Shown in pieces: positions 1-20,599 of a stretch of DNA of 64,000 nt. The notes under the pieces are model-generated. The model saw only the letters and a program-made list of their open reading frames with translations, ran no database searches and had not been told where the DNA came from. This DNA is from Candidatus Sulfotelmatobacter sp. (GTDB lineage: Bacteria; Vulcanimicrobiota; Vulcanimicrobiia; Vulcanimicrobiales; Vulcanimicrobiaceae): the NCBI GenBank assembly GCA_035504415.1, contig DATJRY010000005.1:62001-126000 (forward strand), written 5' to 3'. The number at the start of each line of letters is the position of its first letter. Within the stretch, counting starts at the first letter, position 1. A program made the translations under genes and the position numbers.

Positions 1-750
1 CCTTCCGTCGTCGACGCGCGCAGCGTCGCTCCCGCCGCCCCCGAACCGCCACCGACGCCCGAGCCCGTGCTGCCGCCGCCACCGCCCGAGCCCGTGCTGC
101 CGCCGTCCGCGGCCCTGCCGGTGCTCTACCGGCGCATCGACGGCGACGAGGTACGAGCGCTCGAGCGCGTCTACACGGGCGCGCTGCCGCACGGCCTGGC
201 TGCACTCGCGCTGCTTTCGTCGATCGCCGCTGCCGACGGCGCGGTCGGCGAAGCGCTGGGCCTGAGCACCTTCGCGCGCAGCGTCTCCGCCGCGCTGCCG
301 CGCGCGCTGGTCGCCGCGCGGATGGGCCGCCCGACGCCGCCGGTGGTGACCGAGGAGGCTCTGGCGGTGCTCCGTCCCGCCGGCGCCCCGCCGCTCACGC
401 CGTCACCGGCCCCGGAATCCCTCGGCCCGCACCTCGTGGTCGCGCTCGACGCGCATGGCCTCGAGGGACTGCGCGGCGTGCTCGGGCGGCAGTTGGCGGA
501 CCCGTTTCTGCGTGGCGTCCAGGTGCTCTTGGCGGTCGCGCCACGCCGCATCGACGGCGTCGGCGCGCCGACGGTGCGCTTCGAGGACGCCGTGGCGGCC
601 TTTCGGGTCGCGGCCGGAGGCTGGCTGATGCGGGTGACGGTGCGGCGAACCGTCGACCGGCGCTTCGATCCGCTGACAGCCGACGATGCGGGCCTACACG
701 CCGCCGGCCGCAGCGTCGTCGAAGCGCTGCGCGAGGTCATCCCGACATGA
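1..750 (+). CDS. Unrecognised protein, 5' end outside window
   Basis: The reading frame is open from base 1, so the gene begins upstream; the first in-window start is at 67 but is unlikely to be the real one. The visible N-terminal part is a Pro-rich linker in which the 24-bp unit encoding PEPVLPPP is repeated in tandem (about 58-105). About 200 residues of Ala/Leu/Val/Arg-rich, probably globular sequence follow. I recognise no domain. The gene ends in an ATGA overlap with the glycosyltransferase at 747, so the two are probably co-transcribed and may work together. Codon use is GC-rich like the neighbours. Confidence 0.6.
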   Translation, partial: PSVVDARSVAPAAPEPPPTPEPVLPPPPPEPVLPPSAALPVLYRRIDGDEVRALERVYTGALPHGLAALALLSSIAAADGAVGEALGLSTFARSVSAALPRALVAARMGRPTPPVVTEEALAVLRPAGAPPLTPSPAPESLGPHLVVALDAHGLEGLRGVLGRQLADPFLRGVQVLLAVAPRRIDGVGAPTVRFEDAVAAFRVAAGGWLMRVTVRRTVDRRFDPLTADDAGLHAAGRSVVEALREVIPT

Positions 751-1517
751 AGCTCCTCATCGGCATCCCGACCGGCGGTCAGCCGACACAGCCGTTCCTC
801 GACGCGGTCCCGCACCTCGCGTTGCCGCCGGGCGCGCTTGCGGACCGGCTCATCTGGAGCGGCAACTCCGTCGCCGTGCAGCGCGAGATGATCGCGCGCC
901 ACGCAGTCGCAAGCGGCGCCGACATCCTGCTCATGATCGACGATGACGTCGTGCCGCCTCCGGACGCGCTCATCGCCCTCGTGCGCGCGCTCGAGAACGA
1001 TGCGCGCGCGGCGGTCGCGGGCGCGCTCTACTACAGCCGCGACGGCGCCCGGCCGATGGCTGTCGCGCGCTGGAGCTCGACCGACACGACCGAGGGCGCG
1101 ATTCCCGCCTTTCGCAACGGTGAAGTGACCGACGTCGACGGCGTCGGTTTCGGCTGCGTCGCGCTGCGGGTCTCGGCGCTGCGAGCGTTCTCGACGCCGT
1201 ACTTCGCGGCGCACGTCTTCGTCAACGAGGCGACGCGCTCGGTCCGGCAGGCCGACGAGGACTACCTGTACTGCGAGCGCGTGCGCACCGCCGGGTGGCG
1301 GGTTCTGCTGCACGCCGGCGTCCGCGCCGGTCATTACGACCGTGCCACGAACCGGCTCTCCCCCGAGCGCTGGGAGGACGACGTCCAGACCGACCGCTTG
1401 CGCATGATCGTCCGCGACGCGGACGGGCGAACGCGCATGATTCCGTACGACGCGGCGCACCCGCGCGCGGACGAGCGCCAGGAACCGTTCCCGCTGACGC
1501 TGCTGTTCGGCGCCTAG
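747..1517 (+). CDS. Family 2-like glycosyltransferase
   Basis: A 256-residue GT-A type protein. It starts MKLLIGIPTGG and has the metal/nucleotide-sugar signature MIDDDVVPPPDAL near residues 69-81. A later ADEDYLYCERVRTAGW segment resembles the acceptor-side acidic motif of GT2 enzymes. No membrane segment or signal peptide is visible, so it is probably cytosolic. It overlaps the upstream unknown gene by 4 bp. Its stop TAG shares the palindromic CTAG at 1514-1517 with the stop of the convergent flagellar chaperone gene. Lying beside the flagellar cap and chaperone genes, it may glycosylate flagellin, but the donor and acceptor cannot be read from sequence. Confidence 0.75.
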   Translation: MKLLIGIPTGGQPTQPFLDAVPHLALPPGALADRLIWSGNSVAVQREMIARHAVASGADILLMIDDDVVPPPDALIALVRALENDARAAVAGALYYSRDGARPMAVARWSSTDTTEGAIPAFRNGEVTDVDGVGFGCVALRVSALRAFSTPYFAAHVFVNEATRSVRQADEDYLYCERVRTAGWRVLLHAGVRAGHYDRATNRLSPERWEDDVQTDRLRMIVRDADGRTRMIPYDAAHPRADERQEPFPLTLLFGA

Positions 1518-1894
1518 TAGGTGCTGTTGACGACGTGCGCGGTCGGGGGACGTTTGCCCACCGCGCGCGAGAGCCGGCGCATCTTCCCGATCGACTGCAG
1601 ACGCTCGGCCAGGTTGTCGCGATACGCCTGCAGCCGCCGCAGCTGGTCCTCGCGATAGGCGTACACGCCGCGCAGCCGCTGCGCGACTTTGGCGTCGGCG
1701 GCGGGCGCGACGTCGGGCACCGCGGCGAACAACGCGGCCAGTTCGTCCGTCAGCCGCCGCTGCGTGCCGAACGCCTTACGCACGTCCGGCCAACGCCGCT
1801 CGACCAGCGCCGCCTCGGCTTCGAGGCAGGCACGCTCGAGGGCGATGATCGTGCGAACGGCGATCGCGTGCGGAGTCTCAGCCGACGAGGGCAT
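1514..1894 (-). CDS. FliT-like flagellar chaperone
   Basis: A 126-residue, mostly helical protein rich in Ala, Arg and Glu. I chose the ATG at 1894 because the sequence upstream of it in this frame is low-complexity read-through of fliS; this start overlaps the fliS 3' end by 17 bp, which implies translational coupling. Size, helicity and position directly after fliS match the FliT/FlgN class of export chaperones, which hold the cap protein FliD and other late substrates until secretion. Sequence similarity alone is weak, so the call rests largely on context. Confidence 0.6.
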   Translation of the reverse strand: MPSSAETPHAIAVRTIIALERACLEAEAALVERRWPDVRKAFGTQRRLTDELAALFAAVPDVAPAADAKVAQRLRGVYAYREDQLRRLQAYRDNLAERLQSIGKMRRLSRAVGKRPPTAHVVNSTY

Positions 1895-2303
1895 CGAGCT
1901 GCGGCGCGGTGGCGGCCTCGGTGCGATACCGCTTGACCGCTTCGGACCAGGTCTCGCGCAGTTCGGTGACCATCGGCAGCAGCTCGCGCACCCGCTGCGG
2001 ATCGCCGTGCATGTTGGCGGCGACCAGCTGGTGGTGCCAGAACTCGTAGAGCCGGAACAGGTTGCGCGGCAGATCCCCACCGACCTCGAACCGCAGCGAA
2101 CCCATCAGGAGCGCGCACGCGCGCTGCGCCTTGCGCAGCAGGCGATGGCGCGCTTCGATGTCGCGTGGGCTCGTCTCCATCACGTCGATGGCCTGCCGTG
2201 CGAAGAGCAGCAGCGCATCGTAGATCTTCACGATCAGCTCTTCGGGGCTGGCCGAGTTGATCGACGCTTCGAGATAACGCAGGTTGGGGTTCGCGATCGG
2301 CAT
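1878..2303 (-). CDS. fliS: Flagellin export chaperone FliS
   Basis: A 141-residue helical protein with the FliS hallmarks: an N-terminal ANPNLRYLEASINSASPEEL segment and then IVKIYDALLLFARQAID, the helix that forms part of the flagellin-binding surface. FliS binds the disordered C-terminus of flagellin in the cytoplasm and stops premature polymerisation. It lies 12 bp downstream of fliD and overlaps the following fliT-like gene. The order flaG-fliD-fliS-fliT is the usual late flagellar arrangement and probably one transcript from the sigma-28-type promoter at 4760-4787. Confidence 0.93.
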   Translation of the reverse strand: MPIANPNLRYLEASINSASPEELIVKIYDALLLFARQAIDVMETSPRDIEARHRLLRKAQRACALLMGSLRFEVGGDLPRNLFRLYEFWHHQLVAANMHGDPQRVRELLPMVTELRETWSEAVKRYRTEAATAPQLDALVG

Positions 2304-2315
2304 GGTTGGTATCCG

Positions 2316-4394
2316 CTAACTGCTGGTGCTGAAGAGGTCACCGAGCGAGGACTGCATCTCTTGCAGCTGCGCGATCTGGACTTCGCTGTCGGTGAACTGC
2401 GCCCGCAGGATGTTCGCCTGCATGTTGGCTTGATTGGTCACCGACGAGATCGTCTGCTGCAACGACTGAATCTGATCCTGACCTTCGGTTTCGATCGTCT
2501 GGAACAGCGACTGCGGCGGCGCGGTTCCGACCACCGAGTTGGCGAGCTGCGTCGGCAGCCCGGTCACCGTCGCCAGGTAGGTCCCGACCGAGTTGAGCAG
2601 GCCGCCGCTGCTCGTGAAGATCGACGCGACGGCGCTCGGATCGTCTTGCAGCGCGGATTGCAGCGCCGTTACGTCGAGCGGCTCTAATTTTCCGTCGGTA
2701 CCGGCGTAGGTCTGCGAACCGACTTGATTGGCGTCCGACGTGTTGGTCGCCGTCGTGTCGGTTGAGGAGGAGTCGGAATCCGACGCGCCGTTGGAGGCGG
2801 TGCCAACCGTGAACGAGCTGTCGAGCTGCAAGCCGATAGCCGAGAGCGAGTTGTACTTGCTGCTGCCGGTTTGAAACAGCCCCGTCACCATGTTGACGAG
2901 CTGCTGCTTGAGCCCCTCGACGTCGATGTTGTTGAACAAGATGCCGCCGGAGGTCAATTGCACGCCCTCCTGCGAGCCGGTCGCGCTATCGCTTTGCGAC
3001 CCGATGACGGGGGCGGCGGTCGCGGTGTTGATCTCGCCGATCACCGCGTTGTAGCTCTTCACGAACGCGTTGAGCGCGGTCTGCAGCGCGCTGCTGCTCT
3101 CGGCGACGTCGACCGTTACCGGGGCGATGCCCGTCGCGCCGCCGATGGCTTCCTCCAGCGTCAGCGAGACGCCCGGCACGACGTTGTTCACGGCATTCGT
3201 ATTCGAGTAGACCGTTTGGCTTTGGCCCGAGGCGTCGGTGTACGTGATCGCGGCGTCTTGGCCGATCGTTTGGTCGGCGCCGGCGTAGAGCTGACCCGGT
3301 GTCTGGTAGTTGGCGAGCAGTCCGACTGCCTGCAAGAAGTTCGAGGTGTCGCCGGCCGAGCCCAGTTCGATGCTCTGCGGTCCGTCGTTCTTCGACGTCA
3401 GCACCAGCTGCGAGGTGGTCTGATCGTAGGTCGCGACGACGCCCGCAGACGATTGATTGATCGCGTCGATGATGTCCGCGAGGTTGTTGCCCGACGCGTC
3501 GACTTTGAAGTTGACGCCGTTGATCGAGAACGAGCCGCTCGTGACCGCCGTCGCCAAGCCCGCGTTCTGACCGGTGTCGAAGGTCGCGCCCTCGTTGAGT
3601 CCACCGAGCGGACCCGAGCTGGTGATCGAATACGTGCCGGCGTTGTCCTGTTCTTGCGCGGTGTCGAGCTTGAGCATCGCGAGCGCGTTGCCGGTATCGT
3701 TGGCCGAGCCGACGCTGATCGGAGAGCTCGACGAGAGGCTGAACGTCTGAGTCGCCGCGTCGAAGTTCACCGTCACGCCGACGCCTGCGTTCGTCAGCGC
3801 GCTTTGCAGCTGCGAGGTGAAATCGGCCATCGTGATCGAGCTGGGATCGTACGTGAATGCGACCCCGTCGACGGTGATCTGCGCTTGGTTGCCGTTGCTC
3901 CCGCTCGTCCCGGCCTCGGGCGAAATCGCCAAACCCGCCTGATCGAGCGGCGAGGTCGTGCTGATCGTGCCGGCGGCCTGCGTCGAGCTGGCGATCTGCG
4001 TCGCGGTCGCGAGCGTCGCGGCGGTGATCGTGTACGCGCCCGGCGTCGCCGTCTCTCCCGAGATCGACGAGACGCCGACCGCCGAGGTGTTGCTCGAGCT
4101 CGGCGCGGTGGCGTTGAACAAATCGGGATTGCTGAGCGCCTGGAAGCTGTCTTGGAATTCCGTGACCAAGTTCTGGATCTTGATCAGCTCGGTCTGCTGT
4201 TCGTTGAGCTTGGTGATCGCGGTCTGATCGGGCTTCTCTTGCTCCAGCGTGAGGTTGACGTACTTGTCGATGATCGCGTTGTAGTTGATGCCCGACGCGA
4301 TGCCCGGGAACGAGACGGGCGGGACGTTGGTCCCGTAGACGGTCGAGTCGGCGCTGCTCGAGCTCGACGTGCCGGTCGAAGAGACTCCACTCAT
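2316..4394 (-). CDS. fliD: Flagellar filament cap protein FliD (HAP2)
   Basis: A 692-residue protein without a cleavable signal, as expected for a flagellar type III substrate. After a Ser-rich start, FPGIASGINYNAIIDKYVNL (about residues 28-47) is the conserved FliD_N segment. Two FliD-type repeats with ITVDGVAFTYD and FSINGVNFKVD follow in the middle. The C-terminal 100 residues are a Gln-rich coiled coil (QSLQQTISSVTNQANMQANI) that packs against the filament. It is longer than enterobacterial FliD (about 470), mostly through a Ser/Thr/Asp-rich insertion near residues 530-560. It follows flaG with 1 bp between stop and start and belongs to the flaG-fliD-fliS operon. Confidence 0.93.
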   Translation of the reverse strand: MSGVSSTGTSSSSSADSTVYGTNVPPVSFPGIASGINYNAIIDKYVNLTLEQEKPDQTAITKLNEQQTELIKIQNLVTEFQDSFQALSNPDLFNATAPSSSNTSAVGVSSISGETATPGAYTITAATLATATQIASSTQAAGTISTTSPLDQAGLAISPEAGTSGSNGNQAQITVDGVAFTYDPSSITMADFTSQLQSALTNAGVGVTVNFDAATQTFSLSSSSPISVGSANDTGNALAMLKLDTAQEQDNAGTYSITSSGPLGGLNEGATFDTGQNAGLATAVTSGSFSINGVNFKVDASGNNLADIIDAINQSSAGVVATYDQTTSQLVLTSKNDGPQSIELGSAGDTSNFLQAVGLLANYQTPGQLYAGADQTIGQDAAITYTDASGQSQTVYSNTNAVNNVVPGVSLTLEEAIGGATGIAPVTVDVAESSSALQTALNAFVKSYNAVIGEINTATAAPVIGSQSDSATGSQEGVQLTSGGILFNNIDVEGLKQQLVNMVTGLFQTGSSKYNSLSAIGLQLDSSFTVGTASNGASDSDSSSTDTTATNTSDANQVGSQTYAGTDGKLEPLDVTALQSALQDDPSAVASIFTSSGGLLNSVGTYLATVTGLPTQLANSVVGTAPPQSLFQTIETEGQDQIQSLQQTISSVTNQANMQANILRAQFTDSEVQIAQLQEMQSSLGDLFSTSS

Positions 4395-4395
4395 G

Positions 4396-4734
4396 CTAGG
4401 CGCTGTGATCCAGAACGGCGCCGGCCAGTTTGTTGAAGAACTGAGCGATCAGCACCATCGACTCGGGCGGGAACTGCGTGATCACCTGTCCGGTCTGCGC
4501 GTTGGTGAAAACCGTGACGATCTCGTTGGGATCGTGCACGACCCGAAACTGCACGGAGACCTGCGAACCGTTGCCGACCAGCTGGGAGAGCGCGCTGTGC
4601 AGCGTCTCGTCCTGGGGCGCGTCGACAACGGGCGTGCCGCCCTGCGGGCCGGGGTCGGCCGGCTGCGCCAACTCGCTGGGCGGCGCCGGGGCCGCGGCGG
4701 CCGTCGCCGCAGCGTCGACTGAGAGAACGTCCAT
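4396..4734 (-). CDS. flaG: FlaG family flagellar protein
   Basis: A 112-residue protein: an Ala/Pro-rich disordered N-terminus (about 40 residues), then the FlaG core with VQFRVVHDPNEIVTVFTNAQ and VITQFPPESMVLIAQFF. In this family the last helix carries the conserved FPP-E pattern. FlaG influences filament length in several bacteria. The ATG at 4734 is preceded by GGAGG at 4752-4748, a rather long 13-bp gap. It is the first gene of the late operon with fliD, fliS and the fliT-like gene, and a sigma-28-type promoter ends about 25 bp upstream. Confidence 0.88.
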   Translation of the reverse strand: MDVLSVDAAATAAAAPAPPSELAQPADPGPQGGTPVVDAPQDETLHSALSQLVGNGSQVSVQFRVVHDPNEIVTVFTNAQTGQVITQFPPESMVLIAQFFNKLAGAVLDHSA

Positions 4735-4759
4735 GTTCGTGCAGAATCCTCCACTTGCG

Positions 4760-4787
4760 ATATCGGTCGGCCAGGCCGCCCGATTTA
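4760..4787 (-). promoter_or_regulatory. Sigma-28 (FliA)-type promoter of flaG-fliD-fliS
   Basis: Minus-strand TAAATCGG (4787-4780), a 12-bp spacer, then ACCGATAT (4767-4760), close to the FliA consensus TAAAGTTT...GCCGATAA. The TAA of the -35 element is also the stop codon of the upstream glycosyltransferase-like gene. A start site about 7 bases below the -10 would fall near the flaG Shine-Dalgarno, giving a very short leader. The spacing is identical in three other promoters in this locus. Confidence 0.7.
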
Positions 4788-6722
4788 GGTGACCCCGGCG
4801 GCGGCTTCGGCGTAACCGCGAACGATGCCCCGGATGACCATCGCCGGCATCAAGGCCCCGGTCGCTTCCGCCGGAGGCACCGGCGGGAAGCGCCGCCCTT
4901 CGTCCCAGGCCTCCCCGAGGGCACGGGTGAGCGCGCCCAAGTCGCCGGGGTCGAACCGTTGGGGGACGATGCCGGGGATCGCGAACGAGCGCCGCTCCGC
5001 AACGGCCAGACGGGCTCCGGCGAGCACCGCCGCGGCCAGGCGCGCTGACCCCTCGCCCAGCCACGCCGCGTCGACGACGACCGCGGCGGCCATGCGCAAC
5101 CCGGCGGCCTGGGCAGCCGAGGGCTCGGGCAACACGATCAGGTCGCGGCCGCCGAACTCGCGCACCCGTTCGAGATAGCTGGCATCGAGCACCGGTCCCG
5201 CCAGGACCAACGGGATGCCCGCCGCGGCGGCGCTGCGGGCAACCAGAAGCTGGTTGGCAGCCGGAGCGATCGGGGCGTGGACGAATGCGAACGGATCGGG
5301 ACCGACCAGCTGCCCCACCGCGGCCGGTTCGTGGATCGCGACCAGCGGCGGAACCACGGCGAGCGTGGTGCGGCGGCCGCTCCGGCGCAACACGCGCTGC
5401 GCTTCCTCGTCGGAGGCGACGAAGACGATGGCGGCGTCGCGCAGCGCGGCCGCGCTCTCCTCGAGCTCGGCCTGCGGCGGCGCGTAGGGGGCGTCGGCCG
5501 TCGCCTCGCCGACGCTGACCGCGCGGCGCGCGAGCATGGCGAGGTACCGCTCGACCGACGCCTCGTCGGCGCCGTATTCGAAGCACAAGCGCGCGACCGT
5601 GGCACCCCACCACAATCCCGCCGCCGCATCTTCTTCGTACGCGTGGATCGCGCTGGGGATGCGCGCCCGGCGGGCGGCGTCGACGATGCCGCGGACGCGC
5701 CGGCCGTCGCGAACGCCGATGATGTGGACGAGGTCGGCGCCGGCGACCTCGTCCGGATGCACGCCGTACGCGACCTCGAAACCTTCGGCCGTCAGTCCGG
5801 CGGCCAGCGCCGCCGCCTCGTCGGTATCGGCTCCGGGTTCGTTCGCCGCGTCACTGCGCCCGAGCACGATCACGATGCGCCCGGCCGAGCCGCCCTGGAC
5901 CCCGCCGGTAGGCGGGAGCGGGGCCCGCCGTTGCGGCTCGGCGACGCGCTCGACCACGAACGAGCGGCGCGGCGGTCCTTCGGCCGCGTCGTAGGCGAAG
6001 CCCACGTCGACCGGCAGCGGATCGACCACCCCGACGGCGCCGGGCCCCGCGGCATCCAGCCGCAAGACGGTCTCCGCCGAGCTCGGCGCGGCGAGACCGT
6101 CGCCCAGCACCACGACCGTCGCCGCCGACGAGGACGGCGGCTCGCCGTACCATGCCATGGCAGCCGCATCGCGGCTCCCCGGCGCGACGCCGACCGTGCC
6201 GAGATCTCGCAGCACCATCCAACCGCCGACCGCGTCGGGCGCGTCGAGCAGGACCTCGCGACCGCGCACGTACCGCCGCGCCCAATGATACGGGGCCAAC
6301 CGTACGAGCGCGTCGCGCAGCGGGGCGGCGCCGAACGCACCGATGGCCCGCGCCGCCTCGAAGCGAGGCGCAGCCGCGAAGGCGACGACGTGCTCGCCGA
6401 ACAGCATCCCGGAACGCATCAGGGCGTCGAGGTGCGGCAAGATCCGTTCGGCCAGCGCGGTCGCGAAGCCGTCGCCGCCACGGAATCCGGCCGGGAACAA
6501 CAGGGGGTCGCGCTCGCGCTCGACGATCAGTTTCGGTTCGACGAAGACGCCGGGGACGACGGTGTCGCCGTGCTCGCCGGCAAGATAGAAGTCGAGCAGC
6601 AGCGCGTTGTGCCGTTGGCGCACGACCGGCTCGATGCGGACCGCGGCGAGCCGTTGCGGATCGTCGACGGGCGTGCCCGTGCTCCAGGGCGCGATGACGT
6701 CGAAGACGCGATGGGTTCTCAT
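4785..6722 (-). CDS. Large glycosyltransferase-like protein (GT4-like C-terminal half)
   Basis: A 645-residue protein starting MRTHRVFDVIAPWS. The first 270 residues are not recognised. From about residue 285 (RIVIVLGRSDAANEPG) the sequence follows the rhythm of a GT-B enzyme: a DLVHIIGVRDGRR segment, then VVPPLVAIHEPAAVG, then GIPLVLAGPVLDASYLERV and DLIVLPEPSAAQAAGL, as in the UDP-sugar-binding half of GT4 family members. The catalytic EX7E motif is not obvious, so activity is uncertain. The ATG overlaps the preceding gene's TGA as ATGA. With its two upstream neighbours it forms a block between flagellin and flaG, which suggests a role in flagellin glycosylation. Confidence 0.65.
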   Translation of the reverse strand: MRTHRVFDVIAPWSTGTPVDDPQRLAAVRIEPVVRQRHNALLLDFYLAGEHGDTVVPGVFVEPKLIVERERDPLLFPAGFRGGDGFATALAERILPHLDALMRSGMLFGEHVVAFAAAPRFEAARAIGAFGAAPLRDALVRLAPYHWARRYVRGREVLLDAPDAVGGWMVLRDLGTVGVAPGSRDAAAMAWYGEPPSSSAATVVVLGDGLAAPSSAETVLRLDAAGPGAVGVVDPLPVDVGFAYDAAEGPPRRSFVVERVAEPQRRAPLPPTGGVQGGSAGRIVIVLGRSDAANEPGADTDEAAALAAGLTAEGFEVAYGVHPDEVAGADLVHIIGVRDGRRVRGIVDAARRARIPSAIHAYEEDAAAGLWWGATVARLCFEYGADEASVERYLAMLARRAVSVGEATADAPYAPPQAELEESAAALRDAAIVFVASDEEAQRVLRRSGRRTTLAVVPPLVAIHEPAAVGQLVGPDPFAFVHAPIAPAANQLLVARSAAAAGIPLVLAGPVLDASYLERVREFGGRDLIVLPEPSAAQAAGLRMAAAVVVDAAWLGEGSARLAAAVLAGARLAVAERRSFAIPGIVPQRFDPGDLGALTRALGEAWDEGRRFPPVPPAEATGALMPAMVIRGIVRGYAEAAAGVT

Positions 6723-8983
6723 CGGGCCGCGCGCACCACGTCGTCCAGCGCCTTCGCCGCGCGGACCTCGGCTCCGGCGAAGGCCGCGCGTTCGTGCCCG
6801 GCCGCGACGATCAGACGCTCGTCGGGCGCCACCGCGGCGCGCCAGGCCGCCAAATCGCCGACCCGCTCGACGCGAACCGAAAGCGCCAGCGCCAGCGACT
6901 TGCCGCCGGCGACCAGGAGCGCCCGGACACGTGCCGCGACCACGGCCGTCGGGATCCCGCCCTCGAGCAGCAGGTCGAGCCGCACGGGGTCACTGGCGTC
7001 GAACGTGCCGGCCATCTCGGCGACGAACGCGAGCGCTCGCTCGAGCTCGGCGTCGTCGGCGACCGCGAGCACGATTGCGACCCGCGCCGGTGTCGCGACA
7101 ACGGCCGGGACGACGAACGGCACGCGCGTGGCCGGATCGAAACCGCGCGCGCGCGCGCCGGCCCGGTCGGGGACCGCCACCAGCGGCTGCACGAGATCGG
7201 CCGCCGCGGCGGGATTGTGCGAAACGCCCGGATCGAAACGGTGGACCAACGTGTCGTCGCAACGCACGACGGTATACCCGGCGGCGCGCAGGCGCGTGAC
7301 GAGATCCGCGATACCGCGCCGCGTCGGTCCGAGCGCCGGATCGATGCCGCCGACCGCGTCGAGCGCTTCGCGCGCGATCAGGATCGCGGGAGTCGCCGAC
7401 AGCTCGATCGGGGTGCAGTCTCGCGCGTGGTCGCGCGCCCGGCGTTCCGCGACGTGCTGCAGCTCGTTCAGGTTTCCGTAGCTGACCTCTTTGACGCCCT
7501 CGCCGCTCAGGAGCGAAGCGGTCTGCGGCACCGAGGGTACCGCGGCACCGAGCGCCGGGACACGCGCAAACGCCGCGCGGAGGCGATCGAGCGTGTCGGC
7601 GGGGATCAACACGTCGTCGCTCAACAGGAAGGTCAGCTCGGGCCCCGCGCCCAGCGCGCGGTTCGCGGCGCCGACGAGCAACGGGTCGACCTCGTCCAAC
7701 TCGATCGACGCGATCGCGTTGGCGCCGAGGATCCTGCGCGCGGTCTCGTTGCCGGCGGCGCACACCGCGACCAGCTCGTCGCCGGTGCGCGTCGCCGCCA
7801 GGGCGGCGTCGAGCGTCGTCCGCAGGACGTCGGGCGAGGACGACGCCAGGAAGACGCACCGCACGTGCTTGGTTCCGGCACCTGCCCGCGGACCCGCGGC
7901 ACGGCCCGGCGCGCGCACCGCCCTGCCCGCTGCTTCGACGCCGGCGAACAGGGCGTGCAACGACGCGGCGAGCGGACCGTCGCCGGGCTGCACGTGTTGC
8001 GGAAAGCGACCGGCCGCGAGCAGGACGCAGTTCCCTTCGAGCGCCGCGACGCTCGGCGCGACCGCCGCGACGTAGGTGGCGTCTTCGAGCCGCTCGACCA
8101 GGAGCGCGAGGGCGTCGGCATCCGGCAATGCGGCCGACGCGGCGATCAGCACGTTACGCTCGCCGCGCACGCCGAGCTCACGGCGCAACGCCGCCACCGG
8201 CTCGTCGACGGCGCTCGCCGCGACGACCGCCGGCAACGCGCTTGCGCGACGAGCGGCGTCGCGTGCGTCGGGGCCGTGGACCAAGACCGTCAGCGGCGGC
8301 ATCGGCATGCGCACGCGTCGTCGCAGGCCGCCTTCGAAGCGCGTCTCGCGCTCGATCGTGCGCCGCCGAACGGCGAGCGGCAAGCGCGAGCCGCCCACGA
8401 GGGCGGGATGGGCCTCGCTCACCGCGCGCAGCGCCGAGCGGCGCCCGCGATCGTCGGCGCTCTCGGTCGGGATCGCCCAGGCGAACGACGGCAAACAGGA
8501 CACCTCGAGCCCGCGTTCGCGCGCGCGCGCCGCGACTTCGACGAGCGCCGCCACCGCATCGAACGGCAACGGCTCGAGCAGCAGCGAACGCTCGGCGAAG
8601 AACGCACCGGGCGCCGGCACGTCGATCGGACCGCGCAGCTGCGCCTCGATGCCGCCCTCACCGTGCCCGATGCGGATCGGCCACAGCTCGAAGGGCAGCG
8701 CACCGGCTTCCGACGGCCCGAGCATCCAGCCGTAGTGGCGCCAACTCTCCGAGTACGCCGCGCCTCCCAGCACGGCCGGACCGGCATCGAGCGCGGCGCG
8801 CACGCCGCCGAAGGCTCCCCCCAACGGCGCGGCACCGGGCAATACCACGAGCAGGTACGGATCGTTCGCCGCACGCGCCGCGAGCGCGAGAGCATCCGGA
8901 TCGGCGACGGTCACGACCGCCGACGCCCGCGCGCGGGCCTCACGCAGATCGCTGCTCGGCGCCGCCAGGATCGTGAAGTGCAC
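6719..8983 (-). CDS. Multi-domain family 2 glycosyltransferase-like protein
   Basis: A 754-residue protein from the GTG at 8983, eight bases after the upstream gene's stop; translation further upstream in this frame is shadow sequence. It looks like a string of Rossmann-like units. The third (from about residue 388, VRCVFLASSSPDVLRTTLDA) is the clearest GT2 domain, with LTFLLSDDVLIPADTLDRL as its acidic signature and ARDCTPIELSATPAILIARE plus AVGGIDPALGPTRRGIADL further on. The first two units (THFTILAAP-like start, and MPPLTVLVHGPDARDAAR) and the last (PARVAIVLAVADDAELERA) lack clear DXD motifs and may be degenerate. Its place beside flagellin suggests glycan assembly on the filament; the acceptor is unknown. 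Confidence 0.65.
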   Translation of the reverse strand: MHFTILAAPSSDLREARARASAVVTVADPDALALAARAANDPYLLVVLPGAAPLGGAFGGVRAALDAGPAVLGGAAYSESWRHYGWMLGPSEAGALPFELWPIRIGHGEGGIEAQLRGPIDVPAPGAFFAERSLLLEPLPFDAVAALVEVAARARERGLEVSCLPSFAWAIPTESADDRGRRSALRAVSEAHPALVGGSRLPLAVRRRTIERETRFEGGLRRRVRMPMPPLTVLVHGPDARDAARRASALPAVVAASAVDEPVAALRRELGVRGERNVLIAASAALPDADALALLVERLEDATYVAAVAPSVAALEGNCVLLAAGRFPQHVQPGDGPLAASLHALFAGVEAAGRAVRAPGRAAGPRAGAGTKHVRCVFLASSSPDVLRTTLDAALAATRTGDELVAVCAAGNETARRILGANAIASIELDEVDPLLVGAANRALGAGPELTFLLSDDVLIPADTLDRLRAAFARVPALGAAVPSVPQTASLLSGEGVKEVSYGNLNELQHVAERRARDHARDCTPIELSATPAILIAREALDAVGGIDPALGPTRRGIADLVTRLRAAGYTVVRCDDTLVHRFDPGVSHNPAAAADLVQPLVAVPDRAGARARGFDPATRVPFVVPAVVATPARVAIVLAVADDAELERALAFVAEMAGTFDASDPVRLDLLLEGGIPTAVVAARVRALLVAGGKSLALALSVRVERVGDLAAWRAAVAPDERLIVAAGHERAAFAGAEVRAAKALDDVVRAAR

Positions 8984-8990
8984 GGAGGAC

Positions 8991-10967
8991 TTAGTCGAGC
9001 GCGAGCGCCGCGATCCCCTGCGCGTCGGCGACGCGGCCGGCCGCCAAGAGGTCGGTGGCCAATCCGACGGCCGTCGTCTTGAGCGTGGAAGCGTCCGCCA
9101 GCGGCAGCGCGCGCATGCGGCGCACGGTCGCGACCGCGGCGTCCAGATCGTTCGAGCGGCGTTCGATCTCGGCGCGCAACGCCAAGGCCGCGCCGGCGTG
9201 GCCGTCGGCATCCGGCACGTGTGCGAGGTGCGCGAGGGCGTCGGCATCGCGGTGCAGCCGTGCTGCCGCCAGCGCCGCGTTGAAACGCAGCACCGGGTCG
9301 AGCGGGGCGAAGGTCAGCGCGTCTTCGGCGACCGCGAGCGCGTCCTGGGGCCGCTTCTCCTCGAGCAGCCGATGCGAGCGGCGCGCGAAATCGCCGACCA
9401 TCACCAGCGGCGCGTCCAACTCCTCGGCTCGCAGGCGCGCGCGCCGCTCCTGATCGCCCCGCCGCAGGCACAGCTCGTCGATCAGTCCGAGAATACGGCC
9501 GTCGCCCGGCGCGAGCGCCAGCGCGCGCTCCGCGTAGGGCAGCGGGTCCCCCAACGCCTCATCGCGCAGCACCTTGGCCGCCGAGAGCAGGAGCGTCGCG
9601 CGCGCCCGAGCGCCGACGATGTCGCTGCGCCGGTCGATCATCTCGAACGCCTCGTCGAAACGCCGGCGCCGAATGAGGAAGTTCGCGTAGTTGACGAAGC
9701 CGGTGCTGCCGTCGATCTGTGCGCCTTCGCGGAACAGCCGCTCCGCGTCGTAGACGCGGCCGACGCTTTCGTAGGCGTGCGCCGTCGTACTGCGCAGCAG
9801 CGGCGAATCCGGCTTGGACGCGAACGCGCGCTCGTACCATGGAAGCGCTTCTTCCCAGTTGTCTTCCTTGACGTAGGTCGACGCGATGTTCAAGCTCGCT
9901 TTCCAGCTCGCGATCTCGTCGTCGACCATGAAATACGCGCGCGCACCGGCCCCCAAGTGCATCGAGCGGCGATACGATTCGCGTGCCTCCTCGTAGCGCT
10001 TGCCCAGTGCGAGCAGATATCCACGTGTGAAGAGCAGGTTCGGATGATTGGGCGAGCCGGCCAGCCCGCGGTCGAGCAGCTCGATCCCGCGATCGATCTC
10101 GCCGCGCCCTTCGGCGTACGCCGTCGCGAGCATGACGTACGCGGTCCAGATGAAGCCGCGCACGGTCGTCTCCATCGCGAAGACCTTTTCGAGCGCCTCG
10201 ATCCCGACGCCGATGTCGCCGGCGACGACGGCGTTGACGCCGAAATTGTACCAGGAGAAAGCGTCGTCGCCGTTCTCGCGGATCGCGCGCTCGAGCAGCG
10301 GCTTGTTGCGTAGGCCTTTCTCGCGCGAACCCAAGATCTCTTTGGTATAACCCTTGTGGAGAACGCGCACCGTGCTGACGATCCCGGGCAGGTGATCGGC
10401 GCCGTGCAGGACGACGTTCTCGTGGATGACGCCGTGATAGCGAATGCGCGGGGTGGTCGGAAAGATGCGCGGCAGGATGTGCGACATCGTCGATCCCGCG
10501 CCGGTCTCGTCGTCGACGAGGTTCTCGATCTTCAGGTAGACGGCGGTGTAGTCGGCCGGCGTCTCGCGCAGCGCGCGCAGCGTCGCCAGCGAGTCGGGCG
10601 TGATCTCTTCGTCGGCGTCGAGCACCAGCGTCCAGCGCCGAGTCGCCATCTCGAGCGCCTGGTTGCGAGCCCAAGCGAAGTCGTTGCGCCACTCACGGAA
10701 GATCACGTTCGCGCCGAACTCGCGCGCGATCTCGACGGTACGGTCCGTCGAGCCCGTATCAACGACGTTGAGCTCGTCGACGACGTCGCGGACGCTCGCC
10801 AGGCACTCGGCGAGGAAGCGCTCCTCGTTCTTGACGATCATACACAGGCTGATGCCGACCGGCAGCTGCTCGCGCTCGGGCGGCGGGACCGGCAGGTTGA
10901 GCAGCAGCCCCGTGTGGTTGCGGGCGAACGTGCTCTCCCGGTACTCGTCGACGATCGCTAGCGGCAT
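8991..10967 (-). CDS. GT2 glycosyltransferase with TPR tail, putative flagellin glycosyltransferase
   Basis: A 658-residue protein. The N-terminal GT2 domain has GISLCMIVKNEERFLAECLA (about residues 38-57), VVDTGSTDRTVEIAREFGA, and the DXD-type motif LVLDADEEITPDSL (about 114-127). This is the SunS-like GT2 subgroup. From about residue 230 to the end the protein is tandem TPR-like helical repeats (for example ALPWYERAFASKPDSPLLRS and ALAVAEDALTFAPLDPVLRF), which commonly bind a protein acceptor. It is the first gene after flagellin, separated by a terminator. The layout fits a protein O- or S-glycosyltransferase acting on flagellin, but the acceptor is inferred from location only. Confidence 0.78.
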   Translation of the reverse strand: MPLAIVDEYRESTFARNHTGLLLNLPVPPPEREQLPVGISLCMIVKNEERFLAECLASVRDVVDELNVVDTGSTDRTVEIAREFGANVIFREWRNDFAWARNQALEMATRRWTLVLDADEEITPDSLATLRALRETPADYTAVYLKIENLVDDETGAGSTMSHILPRIFPTTPRIRYHGVIHENVVLHGADHLPGIVSTVRVLHKGYTKEILGSREKGLRNKPLLERAIRENGDDAFSWYNFGVNAVVAGDIGVGIEALEKVFAMETTVRGFIWTAYVMLATAYAEGRGEIDRGIELLDRGLAGSPNHPNLLFTRGYLLALGKRYEEARESYRRSMHLGAGARAYFMVDDEIASWKASLNIASTYVKEDNWEEALPWYERAFASKPDSPLLRSTTAHAYESVGRVYDAERLFREGAQIDGSTGFVNYANFLIRRRRFDEAFEMIDRRSDIVGARARATLLLSAAKVLRDEALGDPLPYAERALALAPGDGRILGLIDELCLRRGDQERRARLRAEELDAPLVMVGDFARRSHRLLEEKRPQDALAVAEDALTFAPLDPVLRFNAALAAARLHRDADALAHLAHVPDADGHAGAALALRAEIERRSNDLDAAVATVRRMRALPLADASTLKTTAVGLATDLLAAGRVADAQGIAALALD

Positions 10968-11062: not shown

Positions 11063-12295
11063 TTAGCGGAAGAGCGCCAGGACCGACTGGGCGTTGCTGT
11101 TCGACTGCGCCAGGACCGAGGTACCGACCTGGACCAGGATCTGGTCGCGGGTGTACTCGGTGGTCGCGCTGCCGATGTTGAGGTCGCGGATGTTCGACTC
11201 GGAGGCCTGCAGGTTGGTGGCCGCCGTGTTGTCGTTGTCCTGGTCCTCTTGGAGGCGGACGATGACCGCGCCGAGCTGCGAGCGCTGGCTGAGCAGCGTC
11301 TGCAGGGCGTTGTCGATCTGGCCGATCGCGTCCTCAGAGGCGAACGAACCGTAGTTCGTGTTGCCGATGAGGTTGATGTTCGCGATGCGCAGCGAGTTCG
11401 TCGAGGTGCTCACGAGCCCGATCTGGATCGTGTCGCCTTCCTCGGCGCCCGACTGGAAGTTGAACGCCGGCGCGTTCGGGTTCGAGTTGGCCGAGACGTA
11501 CTGGCTGACCTTGATGTACGAGGTCACGCCGACGTCGAGCGTACCAGCCTGGCCGAAGGTCACGGTGACGCCGTCGACCGAGATCGCGGCGACCGTGCCG
11601 GCCGCCGGGACGGTCAGCGTCGTGACGACGTGGCCGGCCTGCGCCGCGCTCGAGAAGAACGAGACGACGAGGCCCTGCTGGTCCGAGTTGAGCTGCGCGA
11701 CCTGAACTTCGATCGAACCGTCGACGATCGTGGTGCTGGTGCCGGACAGGGTGACCGATCCGACCAGCGTCTGCGTCTCGCCGTTCGCGCCCGGGGTCGC
11801 CAGGTCCGAGTTGGCCGTGATCGTCGCAAACGCGTCGACCTGCTGCTGGAAGCCGGCGTGCGAGCCGTCCAGCAGGTTCTGACCGTTGTAGCTCGTGTCC
11901 TGAGAGATGCGGTTGACTTCGAGGAGCAGCTGCTGCACCTCGGCCTGCAGGTTCGCACGATCGTCGGTCGAGGTCAGGTCGGACGACCCTTCGACGGCCA
12001 GCGTGCGGATGCGCTGCAGGATGTCGGTCGTGGTTCCGAGCGCGCCGTCGGCGATTTGCGCCGCGTTGGTCGCGTCCTGGACGTTCTGCGCGCCCTGGTC
12101 GAAGCCGTTGACCTGCGACTGCAGGGACTCGGCGATCGCCAGACCGGACGGATCGTCAGCGGCCGAGTTGATGCGGAGACCGCTGGAGAGACGCTGGACC
12201 GTCGTGGACAGGTCGGCTTGCGTCTTGTTGAGGTTCAGGCTCGCTTCGTTGGCCAACAGGTTGTTGGCGATTGAGAGCCCGCCGATGCCAGGCAT
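11063..12295 (-). CDS. fliC: Flagellin
   Basis: A 410-residue filament subunit. The N-terminal D0/D1 helices include SIANNLLANEASLNLNKTQ and SSGLRINSAADDPSG (about residues 38-52), followed by NVQDATNAAQIADGAL. The C-terminal D1/D0 part ends NIRDLNIGSATTEYTRDQIL ... SVLALFR. The middle (about 165-320) is a Thr/Ser/Val-rich variable domain, a plausible target for the neighbouring glycosyltransferases. No signal peptide is present, as expected for flagellar export. A strong Shine-Dalgarno GGAGG sits 6 bp before ATG inside a CsrA consensus, and a sigma-28-type promoter lies about 75 bp upstream. It is the only flagellin in the window. Confidence 0.97.
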   Translation of the reverse strand: MPGIGGLSIANNLLANEASLNLNKTQADLSTTVQRLSSGLRINSAADDPSGLAIAESLQSQVNGFDQGAQNVQDATNAAQIADGALGTTTDILQRIRTLAVEGSSDLTSTDDRANLQAEVQQLLLEVNRISQDTSYNGQNLLDGSHAGFQQQVDAFATITANSDLATPGANGETQTLVGSVTLSGTSTTIVDGSIEVQVAQLNSDQQGLVVSFFSSAAQAGHVVTTLTVPAAGTVAAISVDGVTVTFGQAGTLDVGVTSYIKVSQYVSANSNPNAPAFNFQSGAEEGDTIQIGLVSTSTNSLRIANINLIGNTNYGSFASEDAIGQIDNALQTLLSQRSQLGAVIVRLQEDQDNDNTAATNLQASESNIRDLNIGSATTEYTRDQILVQVGTSVLAQSNSNAQSVLALFR

Positions 12296-19250: not shown

Positions 19251-19856
19251 TCAGAACAGGAAGTTGACGATCTTTTGCAAGATCCCCTGAGTCTTCTTGT
19301 CGGCGTCGCCCTTGAACTCGGCCTGGACGTTCGCGACGTTGCTCGAGGCGATCGTATCGGTGTTGTCGATGTCTTGCGGGCGGATGACGCCGGTGATGTG
19401 CAGCACTTGCTTCTGGCCGTTGATCAGCAGGTTCTGATCGCCGGCGATCTTCAGCGCTCCCGACGGTAGCACGTCGGTGACTTGCGCCTCCATCGTGCTG
19501 GTGAAGGTGCTCGAGCCGACCTGCGCGCGCGCTTCGGACGACTGCCGCGTCGCGCCCAAGCCGATCCCGTCCTTGAGCAGGAAGATGTTGGCCAAGCCCT
19601 GGCCCGGCGTCGCGCTGAGCGAGTAGCTGTTGTTGACGCTCTGCTGCATCGACTGCGAGTTCGCTTGCGAGAAGTTGAACACGACCGTCACCAGGTCGCC
19701 GACTTGCCCGGCACGGAAGTCCGGCCCCAGGCGCAGCGGGTGCCCCGGGCCGACCGGCGGCGGTGCGGCCTGATACAGCGTGTCGGCGAACGCCGGCGCG
19801 CCGAGCGCGGCGAAGGCCAACACGGCGAGCGTAACGCGAGAGAGGGCGCGATGCAT
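19251..19856 (-). CDS. flgH: Flagellar L-ring protein FlgH without lipobox
   Basis: A 201-residue protein. Core FlgH motifs are RAGQVGDLVTVVFNFSQANS (about residues 48-67), MEAQVTDVLPSGALKIAGDQ and LLINGQKQVLHITGVIRPQD. FlgH forms the outer-membrane bushing of the rod. A signal peptide is visible (VTLAVLAFAALGAPAFA), but the mature region has no Cys after it and no lipobox, unlike the lipoprotein FlgH of enterobacteria. The start ATG at 19856 was chosen because it places the signal peptide at the N-terminus and follows flgA by 2 bp. Confidence 0.93.
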   Translation of the reverse strand: MHRALSRVTLAVLAFAALGAPAFADTLYQAAPPPVGPGHPLRLGPDFRAGQVGDLVTVVFNFSQANSQSMQQSVNNSYSLSATPGQGLANIFLLKDGIGLGATRQSSEARAQVGSSTFTSTMEAQVTDVLPSGALKIAGDQNLLINGQKQVLHITGVIRPQDIDNTDTIASSNVANVQAEFKGDADKKTQGILQKIVNFLF

Positions 19857-19858
19857 GG

Positions 19859-20599
19859 CTATTCGCCTCCTGGGAGCGTGAGCTCGACGCGATTGGGGCC
19901 GGTCACGATGCCGGCGACCGCGCGTTGCGTCTGCGGGTTCACCACCGTGACCGTGTCGCCGATCGCGCCGCCGGTGCGGGCGATGACGTCGGCCATCAGC
20001 GAGACGGGGCCGTCGTGGATGACCAGGATCGCCGCCTGACCGGGCCGCACGAGCGTCTGCGGCGAGGTCTCCTCGACGTACAGCGGCAGCCCTTTGGAGA
20101 GGGCCAAGTTCATGCGGCGGCCCAGCAGCGCGTCGCGCTCGACCGCGGGCCGGCCGCTGGCCGGCACGCGCGCCAGCACGACGTCGTCCGGGCCGAGCAC
20201 GGTGCCCGGCGTCAGATCGTGCGCCGCGACGGCGGTCTCGACGTAGGTCACGACGTGGTACCCGACCACGACGGTCCGGACCACCGCGCCGTCGACCACG
20301 ATCGCGACCGGCACGCCGACGTAGGTCGGGTTGACGTACGGCGATCCGCCCGGCTCGATCGTGACCGCGCCGCTGGGCACGCGCTGGTCGGCGATCTGGA
20401 AGGCCGGGTTCAACGAGCGCTCGGGGCCGTCGCTCAAGCCGTGCGCGATGCGATCGGCGAGCGAGGCGATGCGGGCGCCGGCGACGATCTGCGTCGTCGC
20501 CGTGACCGTCACCGACGCGCGCACGCCCGCCGCCGGCACGCAAAGCGCGGCGGCGAGGGCGAGGGCGGCGGCAAGGGCGCGAGCCCGCGGAGCGATCAT
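19859..20599 (-). CDS. flgA: Flagellar basal-body P-ring formation protein FlgA
   Basis: A 246-residue periplasmic chaperone with a signal peptide (residues about 8-28, ALAAALALAAALCVPAAGVR). The C-terminal SAF-type region has AAHDLTPGTVLGPDDVVLAR, LGRRMNLALSKGLPLYVEET and LVRPGQAAILVIHDGPVSL, all typical of FlgA. It helps FlgI assemble into the P ring. The start overlaps the flgG stop by one base, and flgH follows after 2 bp. Confidence 0.93.
   Translation of the reverse strand: MIAPRARALAAALALAAALCVPAAGVRASVTVTATTQIVAGARIASLADRIAHGLSDGPERSLNPAFQIADQRVPSGAVTIEPGGSPYVNPTYVGVPVAIVVDGAVVRTVVVGYHVVTYVETAVAAHDLTPGTVLGPDDVVLARVPASGRPAVERDALLGRRMNLALSKGLPLYVEETSPQTLVRPGQAAILVIHDGPVSLMADVIARTGGAIGDTVTVVNPQTQRAVAGIVTGPNRVELTLPGGE

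Follow-up and report, generated by a model that had tools for sequence, protein, structure and literature searches.

Introduction

Protein glycosylation needs specificity and, to our knowledge, few systems are known in which non-catalytic relatives of glycosyltransferases (GTs) supply it. Here we analyse three genes that lie between the flagellin gene and flaG of Candidatus Sulfotelmatobacter sp. (assembly GCA_035504415.1), in a stretch of 64,000 nucleotides that we call the window (C5:62001-126000 of a 4.17 Mb genome, C5 being contig DATJRY010000005.1). They encode a 658-amino acid (aa) protein with a GT2 domain followed by tetratricopeptide repeats (TPRs), named GT2-TPR, a 754-aa protein, P754, and a 645-aa protein, P645. 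New here is that two proteins of this trio, P754 and P645, are probably non-catalytic, rather than the three being active glycosyltransferases.

In Listeria, GmaR acts both as flagellin N-acetylglucosamine (GlcNAc) transferase and as antirepressor, and its authors propose that the TPRs recognise flagellin (PMC9638930). GT2-TPR resembles GmaR in the order of the GT2 domain and the TPRs, in its flagellar gene context and in having GmaR as its best sequence match in the Protein Data Bank (PDB); it differs in that GmaR carries, in addition, a domain that counteracts the repressor MogR (PMC9638930). The window operon comes with further GT-like genes. Serine-rich-repeat adhesins are modified by the O-GlcNAc transferase GtfA/GtfB, in which transfer falls to GtfA while GtfB is a chaperone that keeps hold of the acceptor (PMC6973325). 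Such an acceptor-holding partner is the mode that we propose for P645. The acceptor is another one, and whereas GtfB has GtfA as its partner, the partners of P645 would be GT2 proteins (PMC6973325). P645 also has a different N-terminal half from that of GtfB, and no common origin is claimed.

In the flagellin glycosylation islands of Enterobacteriaceae, GT genes and sugar genes have been inserted next to flagellin, and some of their GTs carry methyltransferase domains (PMC4875605). The likeness lies in the GT and sugar genes beside flagellin. Variability and signs of horizontal transfer mark those islands (PMC4875605), whereas the core of the window's locus is conserved in one family and has members without catalytic motifs. 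Caulobacter FlmG is a modular flagellin O-glycosyltransferase whose substrate-binding part is separate from the catalytic part; its domains come in another order than those of GT2-TPR, its donor is pseudaminic acid, and no pseudo-GT partners are described in the available part of that paper (PMC7591256). The first cultured species of the phylum lacks flagella, according to the part of its description available (PMC9758169). Among the open-licence literature we found no paper on flagellin modification in this phylum and none on a pseudo-GT or pseudoenzyme tied to flagellin, the only matches by title being on plants.

The trio in a conserved flagellar operon

On the minus strand of the window, the genes run in the order flgK, flgL, fliW, csrA, flagellin, GT2-TPR, P754, P645, flaG, fliD and fliS. 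An earlier note on this sequence, made without database searches, had placed three genes in tight succession between flagellin and flaG, with a further GT2 at 747. Both statements were confirmed: the trio occupies 4785-10967 with the lengths given above, a 7-base gap separates the GT2-TPR gene from the start of the P754 gene, the P645 gene overlaps the P754 gene by 4 bases, and the further GT2 was found at 747-1517 (+). The trio comprises the following features.

8991..10967, minus strand: GT2-TPR, 658 aa, N-terminal GT-A glycosyltransferase followed by TPRs (from Pfam, PDB sequence matches and kept motifs)
6719..8983, minus strand: P754, eroded tandem GT2 protein, 754 aa, GTG start (from alignment, motif table, tree and the ratio of nonsynonymous to synonymous substitution rates, dN/dS)
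8444..8983, minus strand: P754 residues ~1-180, remnant of GT2 unit 1 (from alignment and motif table)
7133..7879, minus strand: P754 residues ~369-617, GT2 unit 2, predicted GT-A fold (from alignment, motif table and fold search with the model)
4785..6722, minus strand: P645, probable GT-B pseudo-glycosyltransferase with a separate N-terminal half, 645 aa (from model and residue counts)
4788..5891, minus strand: P645 residues ~278-645, GT-B/GT4-derived half (from fold search, profile match and residues)
6057..6308, minus strand: P645 residues ~139-222, weak likeness to one S-adenosylmethionine (SAM)-methyltransferase family, tentative (from hhalign)

GT2-TPR, P754 and P645 are part of a conserved flagellar operon of Candidatus Eremiobacterota, beside sugar-nucleotide genes. 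A search for the same trio beside flagellin in other genomes, which the earlier note had proposed, found GT2-TPR, P754 (or a tandem GT2 relative) and P645 consecutive and in the same order in 31 genomes, including the window's. Such a layout is far beyond what chance would give: the order is the same in all of them, and in 28 the stretch read has flagellin in front. A P645 profile search recovered an orthologue in 43 of the 149 genomes of the phylum, all in the window's family. These are 40 matches at >=240 bits and three contig-end fragments, the shortest matches (G003, G004 and G006), which were counted as orthologues because flaG/fliD follow. All 36 P645 neighbourhoods inspected contain flagellar genes. 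The seven others (G082, G100, G101, G103, G104, G109 and G111) have flagellin in the assembly, in G101 on the same contig as P645. The earlier note had considered that homologues might lie mainly in polysaccharide clusters without flagella; the neighbourhoods inspected speak against this, and we rejected an origin from such clusters because all 36 are flagellar.

Genomes with Flagellin_N over its curated cut-off were taken as flagellated, leaving out seven weaker matches in genus g36; they number 61 of 149, with 46 in the window's family and 15 outside. P645 is present in 41 of the 46 flagellated family members, and 41 of the 43 P645 genomes have flagellin; in the remaining two (G031 and G035), the truncated contig that bears P645 also has FliD, together with FliS or FlaG. 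Five flagellated family members are without P645. The contig of G112 breaks off within the intact tandem GT2 that follows GT2-TPR, and P645 may therefore lie beyond the break; the genome of G107 is 61% complete; G038 and G041 have flagellin without the operon in the stretches read. G044 is the only clear absence of the five: it lacks P754 and P645 together and keeps flagellin, GT2-TPR and flaG. G005, of the same genus as the window, has neither flagellin nor P754 nor P645.

For the 15 flagellated genomes outside the family, only partial GT4-half matches to the P645 profile are listed. Matches below the orthologue level cover the GT4 half only, except for the paralogous pairs of G001, G006 and G010 described below. 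Most family genera read have GT2-TPR, an intact tandem GT2 (~850-900 aa) and P645. P645 is absent from the corresponding position in sister family f2, where GT2-TPR is accompanied by just one intact GT2 of 408 aa.

That the first protein is a GT2-TPR, as the earlier note had it, is supported by a PF00535 match (3.6e-24) plus TPRs. Its best PDB sequence matches are GmaR (22ao, 6.7e-29) and SunS (7msp, 2.5e-20) and, as in GmaR, a GT2 domain with DxD is joined to TPRs. The window's protein keeps the VDTGSTD, LDADEE and IHE motifs, and the motifs are intact in 23 of 23 genomes read. Judging by sequence, GT2-TPR is likely a flagellin O-glycosyltransferase of the GmaR/SunS type.

P754, an eroded tandem GT2

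One clear GT2 signature had been reported for P754 in the earlier note. It was not recovered: the window protein has no match in Pfam at E <=0.01, PF00535 included, and none in PHROGs or NCBIfam. Its two GT2 units are visible only through the alignment of relatives and the structure model. The AlphaFold model is only fair (predicted local distance difference test, pLDDT, 71; predicted template modelling score, pTM, 0.56) and was built from an alignment with many intact GT2s, on which the fold result leans; it gives unit 2 a GT-A fold via comparison with 8viw (Z 18.5, root-mean-square deviation, rmsd, 3.0, 218 residues aligned).

The motifs of 21 aligned proteins of the P754 family split cleanly into 12 intact and 9 eroded rows. 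Intact rows keep IPVFNK (or close), NNDT, GYEDVDYC, SWNA, VDNGS, NNDV, GNFEDDD and HHF. Eroded rows, six of the window's genus plus G028, G015 and G031, have lost the N-terminal half of the first unit and the canonical motifs. In the window's P754, the N-terminal half of unit 1 is missing and NNDT and YEDVDY are lost; unit 2 has lost VDNGS and EDDD and keeps the DxD Asp D457, D577 and H581. With the roles that we take these positions to have in GT2 enzymes, P754 is devoid of both the catalytic acidic ED motif and the nucleotide-binding Asp, and keeps the metal-site Asp D457. The lost nucleotide-binding and catalytic positions are occupied by differing small or hydrophobic residues, with no one new conserved set.

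Fourteen further genomes were read, and their tandem GT2s (12 intact, 2 eroded) matched the expectation from clade or genus. Nine of the 14 share contigs with loci fetched earlier and were thus not blind; the five newly seen (G082, G106, G111, G114 and G115) all fell as expected. Coverage was partial in G113 (unit 2 only) and in G011, G082 and G111 (unit 1 only). In total, the motifs are intact in 24 of the 35 genomes read (some in part) and eroded in 11 of 11 of the window's clade, in the parts covered.

In a tree of five flagellar proteins, built by a quick method and with G010 absent, the eroded rows form one clade (Shimodaira-Hasegawa-like approximate likelihood ratio test, SH-aLRT, 99) and the intact rows another (97). 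There is one intact/eroded change among rows of known state; if the five rows of unknown state are treated as their own group, there are four changes for eroded and three for intact instead of one. The branch of G028 is long (1.19), and the order of the first split within the eroded clade is not settled. In the corresponding unit, the single GT2 of outgroup f2 has intact motifs, so the erosion is derived. The tandem GT2 lost its canonical catalytic and nucleotide-binding motifs once in the window's clade, and the gene was retained.

Motif loss, together with the lower constraint on P754 than on P645 and GT2-TPR in identity and dN/dS, could also mean that P754 is a redundant tandem GT2 merely decaying on its way to loss. 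Nevertheless, the frame is open in all nine eroded genomes, from four genera (the G015 copy is shorter, 623 aa), and within the genus there are no stops and lengths stay at 736-755 aa. By the Nei-Gojobori method (NG86), P754 dN/dS is 0.31-0.56 with a mean of 0.41 (15 pairs, within the window's genus only), compared with means of 0.34 for P645, 0.35 for GT2-TPR and 0.51 for FliD (three pairs), all being rough ratios because dS is high. Identity to the window's own copy is 51-55% for P754 versus 59-64% for P645 and GT2-TPR. Since the frames are open in four genera and dN/dS does not exceed 0.56, with a mean below that of FliD, P754 is not simply dying. The tree, with one old loss followed by long retention, also disfavours pseudogene decay, which we regard as very unlikely. 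We rejected a longer 842-aa start for P754, which would run 257 bases into GT2-TPR; genus relatives begin at the same residue as the 754-aa form. We think that P754 is probably not a working glycosyltransferase in the window's clade.

P645, a GT4 derivative without the canonical residues

A general Pfam scan of P645, with no search aimed at DUF1975 made, gave no significant family, and nothing was above cut-off in PHROGs or NCBIfam. The structure prediction that the earlier note had suggested for this protein and P754 gave a good model here (pLDDT 81, pTM 0.84), with a GT-B fold for residues 278-645 via comparison with 6kih (Z 26.8, rmsd 3.2, 322 aligned), and the P645 profile matches a GT4 family of the same phylum, which we call the GT4 cousins (P 3.6e-86). 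The likeness of the C-terminal half to GT4, stated in the earlier note, is thus supported by fold and profile comparison. GtfA and GtfB are GT-B proteins too.

Four GT4 residues were counted: the Arg and Lys of the phosphate pair and the two acids of EX7E (E1 and E2), with the roles that we presume for them in GT4 catalysis. None of the four is found in 32 rows of P645 (one has Asp at E1) or in three P645 paralogues. Twelve GT4 cousins, hand-picked among the stronger GT4-half matches and including one with an in-frame stop, have R in 12, K in 12, E1 in 10 (Asp in two) and E2 in nine (Asn in three). P645 is a GT-B protein of GT4 descent and probably not a working glycosyltransferase.

The folds, GT-A and GT-B, would also suit active enzymes with unusual catalytic residues, in which case the three proteins would build a trisaccharide or a longer glycan. 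Both genes are kept under selection, D457, D577 and H581 are invariant in all 21 P754-family rows, and G028, G115 and G015 keep a Glu-Asp pair displaced by two positions from its canonical place. However, the key positions of P754 do not converge on a new conserved set, and EX7E and R/K are absent in all 32 P645 rows. We consider this explanation unlikely.

For the N-terminal half of P645, the whole-model search, which aligned residues 270-645, found no fold. Residues 139-222 show a weak likeness to one SAM-methyltransferase family (hhalign probability 42%, P 2.7e-4) with a degenerate glycine motif; 17 other profiles, five of them of methyltransferases, scored at or below 1%. A degenerate methyltransferase-like domain is possible there.

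Two observations on relatives were made. Three genomes of the genus carry a paralogous pair (L131:8284-11966, L094:1128-4753 and L101:3-3502), with the first GT2 unit eroded and the second intact, followed by a shorter P645-like protein without the GT4 catalytic residues; in G001 the pair lies directly behind the AAA ATPase that adjoins the flagellar operon. In Verrucomicrobia, giant open reading frames of ~2360 aa (L144:3434-10516 and L157:5593-12672) match the tandem GT2 and P645 profiles in one protein.

A proposed role in flagellin glycosylation

We conclude that this is very probably a flagellin glycosylation locus. The genomic support is good because of its position beside flagellin, its absence together with flagella, the GmaR/SunS-type GT2 and the sugar-nucleotide genes. 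The filament glycosylation suggested in the earlier note therefore stands for the locus; it stands less well for the trio, as two of its three GT-like genes are, by their motifs, probably not catalytic in the genus.

One might argue that P754 and P645 help to assemble the flagellum or chaperone flagellin, with no role in glycosylation. Flagellin/FliD genes in 36 of 36 neighbourhoods and the disappearance of the catalytic motifs would agree with it. However, both proteins have a clear glycosyltransferase descent, the tandem GT2 is intact in 24 of 35 genomes, sugar genes adjoin the locus, and G044 has flagellar genes without P754 and P645. We find such a role quite unlikely.

We propose instead that GT2-TPR glycosylates flagellin and that P645, here also P754, are retained as non-catalytic partners, a scheme to which we give a probability of about 0.55. 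GT2-TPR, its TPRs perhaps holding flagellin, would transfer the first sugar to flagellin in the cytoplasm. The ancestral next gene would have been a tandem GT2 extending the glycan, as its intact motifs in the sister clade suggest. This tandem GT2 would be coupled to P645, a non-catalytic partner that holds the acceptor or the glycan and whose GT4 residues would have been lost long ago; its pairing with an active GT is suggested by gene neighbourhood. In the window's clade, P754 would be kept as a second non-catalytic subunit, with elongation probably done by other intact GT2s (the 747 gene and the tandem GT2s of the sugar island) and with sugars presumably coming from the adjacent cytidine diphosphate (CDP)-deoxyhexose gene island. 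P645, and here P754, would then work like streptococcal GtfB. It is tempting to go further and to suggest, tentatively, a flagellin O-glycosyltransferase complex with pseudo-glycosyltransferases at its core. P645, having evolved from GT4 separately from GtfB, would be an obligate subunit that holds the acceptor or the glycan, the tandem GT2 of the window's clade would have become a second scaffold, and new tandem GT2s would elongate.

Several points weigh against the scheme of retained non-catalytic partners. Motif loss in P754 and P645 does not prove inactivity. The invariant D457, D577 and H581 and the displaced Glu-Asp pairs belong here, and so does the fair quality of the P754 model. PF00535 is matched at E 0.01 by 17 of the 21 aligned P754-family members, so at least five of the nine eroded rows are still recognisable. 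P754 is less constrained than P645 and GT2-TPR (0.41 versus 0.34 and 0.35, in the rough ratios given above). G044 does without both P754 and P645, and in G001 no 747 GT2 was found, even though the sequence read there includes the usual position of this gene.

The P645 family is without catalytic residues throughout, and in its neighbour P754 a switch from enzyme to probable pseudoenzyme can be placed on a tree. Sister clades thus hold an intact and an eroded form of one gene in one place, a natural comparison for the role of silent subunits. At the level of genes, the locus also shows how flagellin may be modified in this phylum.

Second GT2, sugar genes and other neighbours

The neighbours of the trio in the window are listed next.

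11063..12295, minus strand: flagellin, 410 aa, presumed acceptor (PF00669, 2.2e-39; PF00700)
4396..4740, minus strand: FlaG (PF03646, 1.6e-7)
2316..4394, minus strand: FliD filament cap (PF07195, PF02465)
1878..2303, minus strand: FliS flagellin chaperone (PF02561)
747..1517, plus strand: second GT2, 256 aa (PF13641, 6e-10)

Genes of neighbouring stretches and of part of the window were called with a custom codon-score script. The second GT2 faces the flagellar operon, a convergent arrangement seen in many, not all, genomes. Its catalytic motifs (DDD, EDYL) are present in all 17 genomes that yielded the gene; no copy was seen in the stretch read of seven other genomes. Beyond it, G008 carries an AAA ATPase, a protein without Pfam family, a glucose-1-phosphate cytidylyltransferase, a CDP-glucose 4,6-dehydratase, an aminotransferase, methyltransferases and a tandem GT2. 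The cytidylyltransferase and the CDP-glucose 4,6-dehydratase of G008 are above NCBIfam cut-offs, and the same Pfam families occur in the window's own genome, which within ~20 kb has a nucleotidyltransferase, a dehydratase, epimerases, methyltransferases, GT2s and GT4s, with no aminotransferase among the genes scanned. In G008, G002, G028, G015 and G016, rpsB and tsf (named by eye) then follow.

A relative of the island tandem GT2 at E <=1e-60 was found in 7 of 9 eroded versus 3 of 10 intact genomes (60 searched; Fisher p 0.07, ignoring kinship, the seven including the query's own genome). Outside the genus, identity is only 31-36%, which leaves orthology uncertain. G001 and G010, the two eroded genomes that lack such a relative, carry the paralogous pair, in which the second unit is intact; all nine eroded genomes have one or the other. 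This distribution hints that the island tandem GT2 may have taken over the function of P754.

An AAA ATPase, presumably ExeA-like, followed by a ~430-570-aa protein is conserved next to the flagellar operon in the eroded clade as well as in the intact one (window 94-750 (+); L009:18472-19365 and 19362-20000; also L206, L207, L208, L209, L212 and L213). No Pfam family was found for the second protein in the one copy scanned (L207). In the window's genus, the 747 GT2 follows this pair.

Two more flagellin-like genes of the window's own genome lie outside the operon, L193 (C6:114366) and L194 (C17:392956), with the operon's neighbours not found within 20 kb; over the aligned part, they share ~41% and ~37% identity with the main flagellin. 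The small gene that comes after fliS, at 1514-1936 (-), matches no Pfam family over cut-off; its sequence and place are kept in many family genomes.

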